Shown piece by piece: positions 3,300 through 8,637 of a stretch of DNA of 64,000 nt. The DNA is from Oscillibacter sp. 1-3. GTDB taxonomy: Bacteria; Bacillota; Clostridia; Oscillospirales; Oscillospiraceae. The stretch's first letter is position 1. Every line of letters starts with the position of its first letter. Both the position numbers and the translations under genes were made by a program. The notes under the pieces were generated by a model. It saw nothing but the letters and a program-made list of their open reading frames with translations, made no database searches and was not told the origin of the DNA. The DNA is taken from positions 332,765 through 396,764 of the forward strand of contig NZ_KE159703.1 of NCBI RefSeq assembly GCF_000403435.2, read 5' to 3'.

Positions 3300-5060
3300 A
3301 TGAGCGAGGAAAACAATCTCTATACCTTTGACAACGAGACTTACCGCAAGACCTACTGGCACACCTGCTCCCACGTGCTGGCCCAGGCCATGAAGCGGCT
3401 CCACCCCGAGGTGAAGCTGGCCATCGGCCCCAGCATCGACAACGGCTTCTACTACGACTTCGACACCCCGGAGCCCTTTTCCGAGACCCAGCTGGAGGAG
3501 CTGGAGGCCGAGATGCGCAAGATCTGCAAGGAGAAGCTGAAACTGGAGCGGTTCGAGCTGCCCCGGGAAGAGGCCGTGAAGTTCATGGAGGAGAAGGGCG
3601 AGCCCTATAAGGTGGAGCTCATCAACGACCTGCCCGAGGACGCCGTCATCAGCTTCTACAAGCAGGGCGAGTTCACGGATCTTTGCGCCGGACCCCACCT
3701 GGACTCCACCGGCCGCATCAAAGGCAACGCCATCAAGCTCACCGCCTGCAACGCCGCCTACTGGCGGGGCGACTCCAGCCGGGAGACCCTCCAGCGGATC
3801 TACGGCGTGGCCTTCCCCAAGAAGGACGAGCTGGATGAGTACCTCCAGCGCATTGAAGAGGCCAAGCGCCGGGACCACCGGAAGCTGGGCAGGGAACTGG
3901 GGCTCTTCATGATGGCCGAGGAGGGCCCGGGCTTCCCCTTCTTCCTGCCCAAGGGCATGGTGCTGAAGAATACCCTCCTGGACTACTGGCGGCAGTGCCA
4001 CAAGCGGTACGGCTATGTGGAGATCGCCACCCCCATCATCCTCAACCAGGACCTCTGGCACCGCTCCGGCCACTGGGACCACTACAAGGACAATATGTAC
4101 ACCACTGTCATTGACGGGGAGGACTACGCCGTCAAGCCCATGAACTGTCCCGGCGGCATGCTGGTGTACAAAAGCGAGCCCCACTCCTACCGGGATCTCC
4201 CCCTGCGCATGGCGGAGCTGGGTCTGGTGCACCGGCATGAAATGAGCGGCGCGCTCCACGGCCTCTTCCGGGTCCGCTGCTTCACCCAGGACGACGCCCA
4301 TATCTTCATGACCCCGGACCAGATGAAAGACGAGATCAAAAATGTGGTGAAGCTCTTTGACGAGATCTACTCCACCTTTGGCCTGACCTATCAGATCGAG
4401 CTTTCCACTATGCCCGAGGACCACATGGGCGACGAGGCCGTCTGGAAGTTCGCCGAGGACACGCTCCAGGCCGCCATCACCGAGATGGGCAAAGACTTCA
4501 TCATCAACGCCGGAGACGGCGCTTTCTACGGCCCCAAGCTGGACTTCCACCTGTCCGACTCTCTGGGCCGCACCTGGCAGTGCGGCACCATCCAGCTGGA
4601 TATGCAGATGCCCGAGCGTTTTGAGCTGGAATACGTGGGCGAGGACGGTGAGAAGCACCGGCCCATTATGATTCATCGGGCCCTCCTGGGCTCCATCGAG
4701 CGGTTTATCGGCGTCATCACCGAGCACTTCGCCGGGGCATTCCCCACCTGGCTGGCCCCCGTGCAGGTGAAGGTCCTCACCGTCACCGAGCGGGCGGACG
4801 GTTATGCCGCCGAGATCGCCGCGGGGCTGGACAAGGCGGGCTTCCGGGCGGAGACCGACGCGCGCAACGAAAAGATCGGCAAGAAGATTCGGGAGGCCAC
4901 CCTGGAGAAGACCCCCTATATGCTGGTGGTGGGCGACCGGGATATCGAGAACAAGACCGTCTCCGTCCGCCACCGCAGCGGCGAGGACCTGGGCGCCATG
5001 ACGATGGACCAGTTCTTGGAGCTGCTGGGCAGGGAAGTGGATACCAAGGAGCGGAAATAA
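3300..5060 (+). CDS. thrS: Threonyl-tRNA synthetase lacking the TGS domain
   Basis: 586 residues; charges tRNA-Thr with threonine in the cytosol. The ATG at 3300 has AAGGAGGA upstream. The editing domain begins almost at once with HTCSHVLAQAMKRLHP, and its second metal-type motif DLCAGPHL follows near residue 130. The class II catalytic core shows MNCPGGM (motif 2 region), RHEMSGALHGLFRVR, and motif 3 around HRALLGSIERFIG. The C-terminal anticodon domain runs from about residue 485. Usual bacterial ThrRS is about 640 residues because of an N-terminal TGS domain, which is absent here. The frame upstream has no good start or TGS-like sequence, so the short form is real. Regulated by the T-box leader. 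Confidence 0.97.
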   Translation: MSEENNLYTFDNETYRKTYWHTCSHVLAQAMKRLHPEVKLAIGPSIDNGFYYDFDTPEPFSETQLEELEAEMRKICKEKLKLERFELPREEAVKFMEEKGEPYKVELINDLPEDAVISFYKQGEFTDLCAGPHLDSTGRIKGNAIKLTACNAAYWRGDSSRETLQRIYGVAFPKKDELDEYLQRIEEAKRRDHRKLGRELGLFMMAEEGPGFPFFLPKGMVLKNTLLDYWRQCHKRYGYVEIATPIILNQDLWHRSGHWDHYKDNMYTTVIDGEDYAVKPMNCPGGMLVYKSEPHSYRDLPLRMAELGLVHRHEMSGALHGLFRVRCFTQDDAHIFMTPDQMKDEIKNVVKLFDEIYSTFGLTYQIELSTMPEDHMGDEAVWKFAEDTLQAAITEMGKDFIINAGDGAFYGPKLDFHLSDSLGRTWQCGTIQLDMQMPERFELEYVGEDGEKHRPIMIHRALLGSIERFIGVITEHFAGAFPTWLAPVQVKVLTVTERADGYAAEIAAGLDKAGFRAETDARNEKIGKKIREATLEKTPYMLVVGDRDIENKTVSVRHRSGEDLGAMTMDQFLELLGREVDTKERK

Positions 5061-5438: not shown

Positions 5439-6446
5439 ATGAAAAAGATTCTGTCTCTTCTGCTGGCCGTCATGATGATGGTCACCGTGCTGGCCGCCTG
5501 CGGCGGCGGCAATTCCGGCAGCGGCGACGCCGGCAATGGCGCGGCCGCCGTGGATACCAACACCGTGGCCGTGGGCGCCGTGGTCATCGCCCGGGACGAC
5601 GTGCCCGAGGACGACATTTACGCCTTTGTGTCCACGATCTTTGAGAACAAGGACGCCATCACCGAGCAGCACGCCAAGGGCGGCGAGCTGGACCTGGACT
5701 TCGCGTCCTCCGTCACCTCCGTGCCCTATCACCCCGGCGCGGCGAAGTACTTCGCTGAAAAGGGCAAGGACGTGGCCTCCGTGAAGGACGGCGCCGGCAC
5801 GGGCAGCTCCAAGGCCCTGACCTTCGGCACCGGCGGCGAGTCCGGCACCTATTACGGCTTCGGCGGCGTGCTCTCCAGCTATGTCTCCAACAACACCGGC
5901 GTCTCCGTCACCGCCGTCACCTCCGGCGGCTCCAAGGCCAACATCGAGGATCTGGCCGCCGGCGATGTGCAGCTGGCCTTTGTCCAGTCCGACGTGATGA
6001 GCTACGGCTACAACGGCGAGCGTCTTTTTGACAGCAAGGTGGATAATTTCTCCGTAGTGGCTGCGCTGTACATGGAGCAGGTCCAGATCGTCACCACCAA
6101 TCCCGACATCAAGTCCGTGGCGGATCTTGCCGGCAAGTCCGTTTCCATCGGCGACCGGGGCTCCGGCGTTTGGTTCAACGCGGTGGATGTTCTGGGCGCC
6201 TACGGCATTGATCCCGACACCGGCATCAGCCCCGTCTACCAGGGCTTCAGCGACAGTGCCGACAGCCTGAAGGACGGCAAGATTGACGCCGCATTTGTGG
6301 TGGCCGGCGCGCCCACCACCGCCATCGTGGACCTGGCCACCGCCAAGCCCGTGTATCTGGTGAGCCTGGACGAGGAGCACACCAGCAACCTGCTGGCCGC
6401 CTCCCCCTATTACAGCGCCTATACCATTCCCGCCGGGACCTACTGA
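5439..6446 (+). CDS. TAXI-family TRAP solute-binding lipoprotein, apparently circularly permuted
   Basis: 335 residues with a lipoprotein signal (MKKILSLLLAVMMM..) and lipobox LAAC, cysteine at residue 21. It should sit on the outer face of the membrane and hand solute to the TRAP permease encoded downstream. Family order is unusual. Residues about 38-110 (TNTVAVGAVVIARDDVPEDD, later FVSTIFENKDAITEQHAKG and SVPYHPGAAKYFAEKG) are the segment that normally ends TAXI proteins. Residues about 126-335 start with LTFGTGGESGTYYGFGGVLS, normally the mature N-terminus, and stop at AYTIPAGTY, where the moved segment normally follows. A short GAGTGSS linker joins the two. The call as TAXI is firm; permutation is inferred from recall of the family. 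Confidence 0.93.
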   Translation: MKKILSLLLAVMMMVTVLAACGGGNSGSGDAGNGAAAVDTNTVAVGAVVIARDDVPEDDIYAFVSTIFENKDAITEQHAKGGELDLDFASSVTSVPYHPGAAKYFAEKGKDVASVKDGAGTGSSKALTFGTGGESGTYYGFGGVLSSYVSNNTGVSVTAVTSGGSKANIEDLAAGDVQLAFVQSDVMSYGYNGERLFDSKVDNFSVVAALYMEQVQIVTTNPDIKSVADLAGKSVSIGDRGSGVWFNAVDVLGAYGIDPDTGISPVYQGFSDSADSLKDGKIDAAFVVAGAPTTAIVDLATAKPVYLVSLDEEHTSNLLAASPYYSAYTIPAGTY

Positions 6447-6499
6447 GCGGGGGTGCTCAGGGAGCGTTAAGATTCCCAGTCCGGAAGGGATTCCATCCG

Positions 6500-6526
6500 G
6501 CAAGGGCCGCATTTCGCGGCCCTTGC
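6500..6526 (+). terminator. Intercistronic hairpin between binding protein and permease
   Basis: GCAAGGGCCGC / GCGGCCCTTGC hairpin with no T-run. It may stabilise or partly terminate the upstream message so that the binding protein is made in excess of the permease, a common arrangement in transport operons. The role is inferred. Confidence 0.5.
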
Positions 6527-6606
6527 TGTGTTGAAAGGGCGGCGAAGCCTCCGCTTTACGCCTTTTCAAAACAGCAAGAGAAATTCGATCAAGGAGGTTT
6601 CACCCA

Positions 6607-8637
6607 ATGAGCGAGAAAGACAAGAACGCCCTGCCGGACGTGGAGACCGGCACGGCGGCGGAGATGGATGAGGTCATGCGCAAGTATGACCGGGAGTCCG
6701 CCACCCGTATCTGGGAGGGAGTGCCCAAGACGGTGGTCAGCGTGATTACGGCGCTGTTCTCCCTGTACTGCATCTGGTCCACTCTGTGGAGCACGGCGGA
6801 CCTTCCCATCCGCCTGTCGGCCTTTTTGGGGCTGATTATCATCATGGGCTATCTCAACTACCCCCTCCGCAAAGGACACGTGACCCCCAACTCCATGCCC
6901 TGGTACGACATCGCGCTGATGGTCCTGGGAGCCGGGTCCTTCTTCTATTACTGCCTGAATTACAGAAACCTGGTCATGGTCATTACCAGCGCCGCCAAGA
7001 TTGACCCCTGGGGCGAGAACGCCATCGACGGGGCGTGGCTCTATATTGCCCTGGGCATCATAGGGATTCTGTGCCTTGCGGAGCTGTGCCGCCGGTGCGT
7101 GGGCCTGCCCATCCTCTGCGTGGTGGGGGCGCTGATGATCTACACCTTTGCCAGCGGCCAGAGTCTGGCCCGGGTGATCTATACCCTCTTCTACGGCACC
7201 TCCGGCGTCATGGCCACGCCCATCCAGGTGTGCGCCAAGTTCATCGCCGTGTTCATCATCTTCGGCTCCTTCCTGGAGCGCACCGGCATCTCCAGTTTTT
7301 TCATCGACCTGGCCAACTGCGCAGCGGGCTCCTCCTCCGGCGGCCCGGCCAAGGTGGCGGTGATCTCCTCCGCCCTGTGCGGTATGGTCTCCGGCTCCTC
7401 CGTGGGCAATACGGTGACCACCGGCTCCGTCACCATCCCCATGATGAAGAAGACCGGCTATAAGGGCGAGTTTGCCGCGGCCGTGGAGGCCGCCGCCTCC
7501 ACCGGCGGGCAGATCATGCCCCCCATCATGGGCGCCGCCGCCTTCCTCATGGCGGAGTATATGGACACCACTTATGCCACCGTGGCGTTGAAGGCCATCC
7601 TCCCGGCCCTGCTGTACTTCACCGGCATCTTCCTCTCCGTCCATCTGGAGGCCAAGCGGCTGGGGCTCCAGGGCGTCCCCCGGGACCAGCTGCCCAGGTT
7701 CCGGCTGCTGATCCGCAGCATCTATCTGCTGATCCCCCTGGTGGTTCTGGTTTGGCTGGTGTCCACCGGCGCCCGGACTCTCCAGTTTTCCGCGGCCATC
7801 GCCATTGTGCTGACCATTCTGGTGAGCCTGCCCCATATCTTCCGGGACAGCCGCGCCCAGCACGGCGAGGGCTTCGCCGTCCACGCGGTGAAGGAGACCG
7901 CCGCCATGATCGCCTCCTCCCTGGAGGCCGGCGGCCGGGGCTGTATCACTGTGGCGGTGGCCTGCTCCATGGCCGGCATGGTGGCCGGGTGCATCACCGT
8001 GACGGGTCTGGCGTCCAAGCTGGTCAGCGCGGTGGTGAACATCAGCCGTATGATCCCCAACGAGGCGCTGGCCCTGTTTATCGCCCTGTTTTTGACCATG
8101 CTGTGCTGCATCGTGCTGGGCATGGGCGTGCCCACCACCGCCAACTACTGCATCATGGCCTCCACCTGCGCCCCCATTTTGATTACCCTGGGCATCGGCA
8201 AGATCCCCGCCCACTTCTTCGTCTTTTACTTCGGCATCGTGGCGGACATCACGCCCCCCGTGGCCCTGGCGGCCTACGCCGGCAGCGCCATTGCCAAGTC
8301 CAACCCCATGAAGACCGGCGTCAACGCCACAAAGCTGGCCATTGCCGCCTTCATCGTGCCCTATATCTTCGCCTTCAATCCCGCCATGCTTCTGGTGGAT
8401 ACCGGCCCGGTGGACGTGGTGGTGATTGTCGTCACCTCGCTGGTGGGCCTGTTCGGCATTGCGGCGGCCCTCAACGGCACGCTGTTCCGCAGAATCAATC
8501 CCCTGTTCCGCGTCCTTATGGCGGTGGGCGGATTGAGCATGATGTTCCCGGGGTTTGCCAGCGACATCATCGGTCTGGTGCTGGTGCTGGGCGTTGTGGC
8601 CCTTCAGAAGATGGGCGCCCAAAAGGCCGCGGCCTGA
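6607..8637 (+). CDS. TRAP transporter fused permease (DctQM type, TAXI class)
   Basis: 676 residues, many hydrophobic segments. TAXI-TRAP systems use one polypeptide joining the small DctQ-like and large DctM-like membrane parts. The first 180 residues hold DctQ-like helices. The rest holds the DctM part with the conserved glycine/serine-rich stretch GMVSGSSVGNTVTTGSVTIP and the G..G..TGGQIMPPIMGAAAF motif, plus MGVPTTANY near residue 515. Start at 6607 has AAGGAGG upstream. It lies 160 bases after its binding protein in the same direction; together they form a secondary, ion-driven importer. Substrate cannot be told from sequence. Confidence 0.95.
   Translation: MSEKDKNALPDVETGTAAEMDEVMRKYDRESATRIWEGVPKTVVSVITALFSLYCIWSTLWSTADLPIRLSAFLGLIIIMGYLNYPLRKGHVTPNSMPWYDIALMVLGAGSFFYYCLNYRNLVMVITSAAKIDPWGENAIDGAWLYIALGIIGILCLAELCRRCVGLPILCVVGALMIYTFASGQSLARVIYTLFYGTSGVMATPIQVCAKFIAVFIIFGSFLERTGISSFFIDLANCAAGSSSGGPAKVAVISSALCGMVSGSSVGNTVTTGSVTIPMMKKTGYKGEFAAAVEAAASTGGQIMPPIMGAAAFLMAEYMDTTYATVALKAILPALLYFTGIFLSVHLEAKRLGLQGVPRDQLPRFRLLIRSIYLLIPLVVLVWLVSTGARTLQFSAAIAIVLTILVSLPHIFRDSRAQHGEGFAVHAVKETAAMIASSLEAGGRGCITVAVACSMAGMVAGCITVTGLASKLVSAVVNISRMIPNEALALFIALFLTMLCCIVLGMGVPTTANYCIMASTCAPILITLGIGKIPAHFFVFYFGIVADITPPVALAAYAGSAIAKSNPMKTGVNATKLAIAAFIVPYIFAFNPAMLLVDTGPVDVVVIVVTSLVGLFGIAAALNGTLFRRINPLFRVLMAVGGLSMMFPGFASDIIGLVLVLGVVALQKMGAQKAAA

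Follow-up and report, generated by a model that had tools for sequence, protein, structure and literature searches.

The gene at 5439..6446 on the forward strand of the window (the whole stretch of DNA analysed, 64,000 nucleotides long) raises the question of whether a TRAP-transporter binding protein of the TAXI family can have its chain re-cut and re-joined and still be a working protein, or whether its unusual order of segments has another explanation. A preliminary description had proposed that the encoded protein is a circular permutant, and this was borne out by family profiles, by solved structures and by a normal-order orthologue. The reading adopted here, to which we give a probability of about 0.9, is that the gene encodes a predicted working TAXI-family solute-binding lipoprotein of TRAP uptake, in a natural circularly permuted form.

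Order of the segments in the binding protein

The 335-residue product was annotated as a circularly permuted TAXI-type solute-binding lipoprotein on the basis of PF16868 and TIGR02122, which match it in two swapped stretches, and of its swapped alignment to five solved TAXI sequences. All its parts are on the forward strand. A putative signal peptide (residues 1–21, 5439..5501; judged by eye on the translation) ends in the lipobox L-A-A-C and is followed by a low-complexity tether (residues 22–38, 5502..5552), recognized in the translation and in the structural model, where residues 14–33 show pLDDT below 50. Then comes the moved segment (residues 39–109, 5553..5765), which corresponds to the normal C-terminal part of TAXI proteins and begins with hinge strand 2 (model strand 40–52). 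A joining linker (residues 110–126, 5766..5816), with the conserved motif VAxVKxGAGxG defined by column counts in 47 rows and by a motif pattern, leads from the old C-terminus to the old N-terminus. The core (residues 127–335, 5817..6443) corresponds to the normal N-terminal three quarters, contains hinge strand 1 (204–219) and domain 2, as located by profile and model elements, and ends in ...IPAGTY. So, the usual C-terminal segment is indeed the first one after the lipobox, the mature N-terminus expected at residue about 126 is where the core begins, and the GAGTGSS linker between the old ends and the C-terminus at AYTIPAGTY are as had been described.

PF16868 matches one and the same open frame twice, with profile positions 1–215 in its second part and 217–289 in its first part. 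Over the two stretches, the whole-protein match has an E value of 3.4e-70 and 237.4 bits, against a curated cut-off of 27, and TIGR02122, also in two stretches, gives 247.2 bits against a curated cut-off of 84.35. The order that characterizes the TAXI family, i.e., the N-terminal core followed by the C-terminal segment, is reversed in the window protein, which is, judged on its sequence, a permuted variant of the family and not an ordinary member. Concerning the solved TAXI sequences matched with E up to 0.001, five of the seven distinct ones show both blocks in swapped order; for instance, residues 12–234 of the 1us4 chain align to residues 119–335 of the query, and residues 239–311 to 38–109. 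At that cut-off, 4ddd and 9ibp match the core alone.

The comparison with the normal-order orthologue of Oscillibacter ruminantium (L099) gave the two off-diagonal blocks that the preliminary description had predicted for a dot plot, far beyond chance: query residues 106–335 match residues 32–262 with 65% identity (E 2e-102), and residues 39–109 match 268–338 with 82% identity (E 2e-35). A third, weak match (27%; query 1–182 to 1–214) starts from the shared signal peptides. The protein thus shows what is expected of a natural permutant: both segments belong to one family, they are reversed, the old ends are joined and there is no leftover duplicate. In agreement with the earlier proposal that nothing follows the stop, no copy of the moved segment was found 3′ of the stop codon at E 1e-3 in the DNA around 58 permuted loci; in a few of these, the contig stops shortly after the gene. 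The comparisons with profiles, solved structures and the orthologue all agree with, and support, a natural circular permutation. Apart from this gene, the genome of the window encodes a second, distant TAXI protein (L002, G000:C1:18614-19510), which matches PF16868 2–289 in normal order.

Recurrence and distribution of the permuted order

Ten permuted proteins were aligned and used as the query for a species-level scan, with each of 84,980 species represented by one genome, and the best 80 of 532 confirmed relatives were analyzed. The tail preceded the core in 58 of these 80 loci and followed it in 22, a proportion that should not be taken as a frequency, because the permuted query makes the ranking favour permuted genes. 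The most divergent permuted gene among the 80 was that of L091 (1561-2577), with 55% identity. When all the searches were considered, 148 loci were classified (L001–L003 excluded, and the same gene sometimes counted under different searches): 87 permuted, 56 normal, one with the core alone at a contig edge, and four with a second tail in a separate tandem gene. In none of the 148 was the moved segment present at both ends of one gene. A simple N-terminal duplication of the tail, with the original copy kept at the end, is rejected by this count, and the first of the two objections foreseen in the preliminary description falls with it.

The second objection, assembly error, was considered together with chimera and pseudogene. 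The window genome is an assembly of 12 contigs and its relatives are mostly labelled as MAGs, which gives such an artefact some room. Against it, the same order recurs in the 58 permuted loci of the best 80, from many separate assemblies, and the gene lies inside a 1.3 Mb contig, with its frame intact and a low dN/dS. The full-gene dN/dS was 0.15–0.29 in seven of seven comparisons, with 0.08–0.50 for the moved segment and 0.11–0.31 for the core, all of them rough values from a simple counting method; a codon model gave two full-length values, 0.025 and 0.034. The gene is under purifying selection. This and the recurrence of the order reject both assembly error and pseudogene, and the probability left to an artefact of this kind is negligible.

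Concerning the taxonomic spread, 146 of 400 genomes sampled evenly in the family matched at E 1e-40, and in 20 of them, counted by match span and including the window genome, the match ran across the junction. In the remaining genomes of the family it began at about residue 99 or later, as it does in normal-order genes. The reading of 29 new loci from this sample gave 19 permuted and 10 normal ones. Of 398 genomes across the phylum, 129 gave a match at E 1e-30, which spanned the junction in the window genome alone; most of the others gave a core match only, and nine loci were read as normal order. Taken together, the two samples indicate that the permuted order is derived and local.

Among 60 relatives, the permuted order was found in 10 (two of them cut by contig ends), in addition to one core at a contig edge with the same C-terminus. 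The genomes of these 11 contain, among the matches listed, no normal-order one with at least 55% identity; G034 and G036 contain distant ones at 37–38%. The lack of a close normal-order match in them suggests replacement rather than an added paralogue. Judged by their labels, the permuted loci come from Oscillibacter, Dysosmobacter, Lawsonibacter, other Oscillospiraceae and unplaced Clostridia. Three more are from bins of Lachnospiraceae type (L069, L070, L083), and another nine from bins that carry the label Spirochaetota (L057, L059, L060, L067, L068, L071, L072, L075, L076). So, it belongs mainly to Oscillospiraceae, with likely transfer to Lachnospiraceae and to rumen spirochaetes.

Predicted structure, ligand and partner permease

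The structure predicted for the permuted protein from 47 sequences had a mean pLDDT of 89.6 and a pTM of 0.85, with the moved segment and the linker at about 96–99. The model of the normal-order orthologue, from 22 sequences, had a mean pLDDT of 81.5 and a pTM of 0.77, with residues 1–48 under pLDDT 50. The 22 elements that follow the signal peptide in the permuted model correspond one-to-one to those of the normal-order model; for example, strand 40–52 is the equivalent of 269–281, and strand 204–219 that of 132–147. Foldseek, which follows chain order, placed the same seven TAXI chains on top for both models, with 223–234 aligned columns for the permuted model versus 294–308 for the normal one; the smaller coverage is as a permutation predicts.

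The site of the cut can be located on VcGluP. According to the available part of PMC11574862, domain 1 of this protein comprises residues 29–115 plus 268–328, domain 2 comprises residues 132–254, and the hinge is formed by the antiparallel strands 116–131 and 255–267. VcGluP numbering was obtained as chain position plus 28, and Y45, S75, Q93, E125, G156 and D157 fall on those letters. On these borders, the C-terminus of the window protein falls at the equivalent of residue 248, and the moved segment begins at about 254. The cut is thus located in the final loop of domain 2, immediately ahead of hinge strand 2. A cut there would leave domains 1 and 2 each continuous and joined by hinge strand 1 alone, so that the permuted protein would have one covalent crossing between its lobes instead of two.

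It could be thought that the moved segment folds not onto its own chain but onto a partner molecule, in a domain-swapped dimer. Chain-end swapping is a known behaviour of proteins whose ends have been moved. The TAXI protein BP0403 is a dimer, one formed through its own helical region, as given in the accessible part of PMC12344293. The permuted protein is predicted as a monomer with the pTM indicated above, and its linker is ordered and conserved, so that a swapped dimer seems quite improbable. The linker residues V112, V115, K116, G118, A119, G120 and G122 are conserved in 45–47 of the 47 rows, which makes the linker more than a loose spacer. The tether between the lipobox and the first folded segment had a median of 24 residues in 43 permuted proteins versus 11 in 21 normal-order ones, as estimated with a crude pattern that missed some rows.

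Concerning the ligand, Y138, S165, Q183 and E213 of the window protein are the equivalents of Y45, S75, Q93 and E125, which are among the ligand-site residues of the glutamate-binding VcGluP named in the same portion of PMC11574862, and they were invariant in 47 of 47 rows. On the other hand, D157, Y200 and M201 of VcGluP correspond to V244, V287 and V288, so that the ligand may differ from glutamate.

The presumed partner is a TRAP transporter fused permease encoded at 6607..8637 on the forward strand (TIGR02123, E 1.1e-178), i.e., the fused TRAP membrane component expected near a TAXI gene is present. Among the best 80 of 532 relatives, the gene is followed by a permease match in 54 of the 58 permuted loci and in all 22 normal-order ones. 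Of the four permuted loci without it, three stop at or near a contig end; in the fourth, L091, about 6 kb of sequence gave no match. The gap between the binding protein and the permease (6447..6606, forward strand) contains strong predicted stem-loops (fold z-score −5.3; none of 200 shuffled sequences was as stable), which may determine how much binding protein is made relative to permease. A GGGCCGC/GCGGCCC hairpin of this gap is also visible in the close relatives L034 and L035.

The favoured reading, that of a working circular permutant, can be put together as follows. The C-terminal segment, with hinge strand 2 and the last part of domain 1, is now the first one after the lipid-anchor tether; the 17-residue conserved linker connects it to the old N-terminus, and the chain terminates just before the old passage from domain 2 into hinge strand 2. 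On the VcGluP borders given above, this strand would be held by pairing while tethered to the membrane. The flytrap-like closing would be retained, and the ligand, probably a glutamate-related amino or organic acid, would be delivered to the fused permease encoded next door. A bolder suggestion is that of a one-crossing TAXI subclass, in which the lipid tether pulls on the free hinge strand 2, and membrane anchoring or permease docking tunes the opening of the lobes. We consider it tentative and rather unlikely; if true, the protein would have lost its second covalent crossing through adaptation rather than by neutral accident.

In comparison with the known TAXI binding proteins VcGluP (8s4j) and TtGluBP (1us4), the window protein is alike in having all the family segments, a lipoprotein signal, an adjoining fused TRAP permease, the four conserved ligand residues and the same predicted elements. 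It differs from them in the reversed segments, the new linker, the end before hinge strand 2 and, presumably, the single lobe crossing. The nearest precedent for a naturally permuted, membrane-tethered solute-binding protein is TpMglB-2 (Tp0684) of Treponema pallidum, described in the available part of PMC4990184 as a circularly permuted Type I sugar-binding lipoprotein, 'Type Ic', which still binds its ligand and changes conformation, with relatives in treponemes and Gram-positive gut bacteria. According to the same portion of that source, TpMglB-2 is of another binding-protein type and works with an ABC transporter. Its first three strands were moved to the end, with a fourth crossing added, and its moved part is only 13% identical to the counterpart. 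In the window protein, the last segment was moved to the front, a crossing would have been lost, and identity to the normal-order orthologue is 65% and 82% for the two blocks. The best matches of the window protein in Pfam, NCBIfam and solved structures are to the TAXI, NMT1 and phosphonate/sulfonate families, which sets it apart from the Type I sugar-binding proteins.

No permuted TRAP binding protein was found in the literature on permutation together with substrate-binding proteins or TRAP transporters, as covered by titles and abstract openings, with subscription literature little represented. To our knowledge, a natural circular permutant rarely has normal-order relatives as close as here. 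The existence of this normal-order counterpart in the same genus, with a linker that has been kept and a cut at the hinge, offers a direct test of the loss of one lobe connection in a flytrap protein. The permuted protein is also a clear case, from nature, of a chain re-cut and re-joined in evolution that still looks complete and conserved, and it is a warning for annotation pipelines that score two fragments and not one domain.

Origin and spread of the permutation

A single origin of the permutation is the most likely, in Oscillospiraceae and in a gene adjoining this permease, either through fusion of tandem copies or through copying of the tail to the front with loss of the original; the permuted form would have spread thereafter by descent and transfer. 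Among the best 80 of 532 relatives, all 58 permuted loci carry the linker motif pattern and none of the 22 normal-order ones does, which argues for one junction event. The permuted genes are not all recovered as one clade in the trees: two changes were needed in the binding-protein tree, three in the core-only tree, five in the tail-only tree and two in the permease tree. When all the permuted rows were held together, the AU tests gave p values of 0.16, 0.07, 0.82 and 0.21, respectively. So, a single origin is favoured by the shared linker and is neither shown nor rejected by the trees.

In the binding-protein tree, L087–L089 group with a normal-order gene with weak support (80/67), and seven normal-order rows are found among the permuted ones. 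The permease tree, obtained by a quick search without bootstrap, has 49 of 51 permuted rows on one side of a branch (SH-aLRT 100) and all 19 normal-order rows on the other side, where L087 and L088 are also placed. A reversion from permuted to normal order, hinted at by the seven nested rows, is not supported by this split. A second, independent permutation at the same loop in the L087–L089 lineage, besides that of the main group, would agree with the separation of L087–L089 in the binding-protein tree, with that of L087 and L088 in the permease tree, and with the core-only AU test, which is near rejection of one clade. However, L087–L089 share the linker of the main group (VASVKEGAGTG in L087), one clade was not rejected by the AU tests, and a recombination mosaic would fit as well; we regard a double event as a minority explanation, of low probability. 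The trees would agree either with a single origin followed by recombination or with a second event.

As to the route, the permuted gene may have arisen by tandem duplication and trimming. The preliminary description had suggested looking in relatives for the same order and for intermediates of tandem duplication; the former was found abundantly, and neither a fused nor a tail-core-tail form appeared among the 148 loci classified. In the Synergistaceae loci L093, L097, L098 and L104, two different complete normal-order TAXI genes lie head to tail and in the same frame, followed by one fused permease; a single stop codon and a second signal peptide separate them. They offer a possible picture of the duplication step, although they are unfused and their first copy is an old diverged paralogue, off the direct line. 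The tandem state needed by the duplication model thus exists among relatives, although it need not have been the ancestral state here.

The upstream neighbour of the window gene is thrS, for threonine–tRNA ligase (3300..5060, forward strand; TIGR00418, E 5e-217). A thrS match was found upstream of eight of 58 permuted and six of 22 normal-order loci, at distances of about 0.2 to 4 kb. Its identity to the window copy was 55–59% beside five of the six normal-order genes and 84–90% beside five of the eight permuted ones. Given the varied distances and the 55–59% identity beside most normal-order genes, thrS synteny gives weak support.

Concerning the loci labelled as spirochaete, their nine genes are grouped within the permuted ones as a single supported clade in the binding-protein tree; in the permease tree, the same holds for the eight of their permeases that were long enough to be included. 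Their G+C content is 41–52%, versus 60–64% in three Oscillibacter-type permuted loci, alike in the gene and in the flanks, and the neighbours of the L057 gene resemble, by eye, outer-membrane beta-barrel proteins. With the bin labels taken as given, these data fit an old transfer to rumen spirochaetes. By a simple pattern, the lipobox is absent in six of the nine genes. All nine proteins have three extra C-terminal residues, GSK, and in several of these loci the permease match begins at the stop codon of the binding protein or just before it, unlike in Oscillospiraceae.
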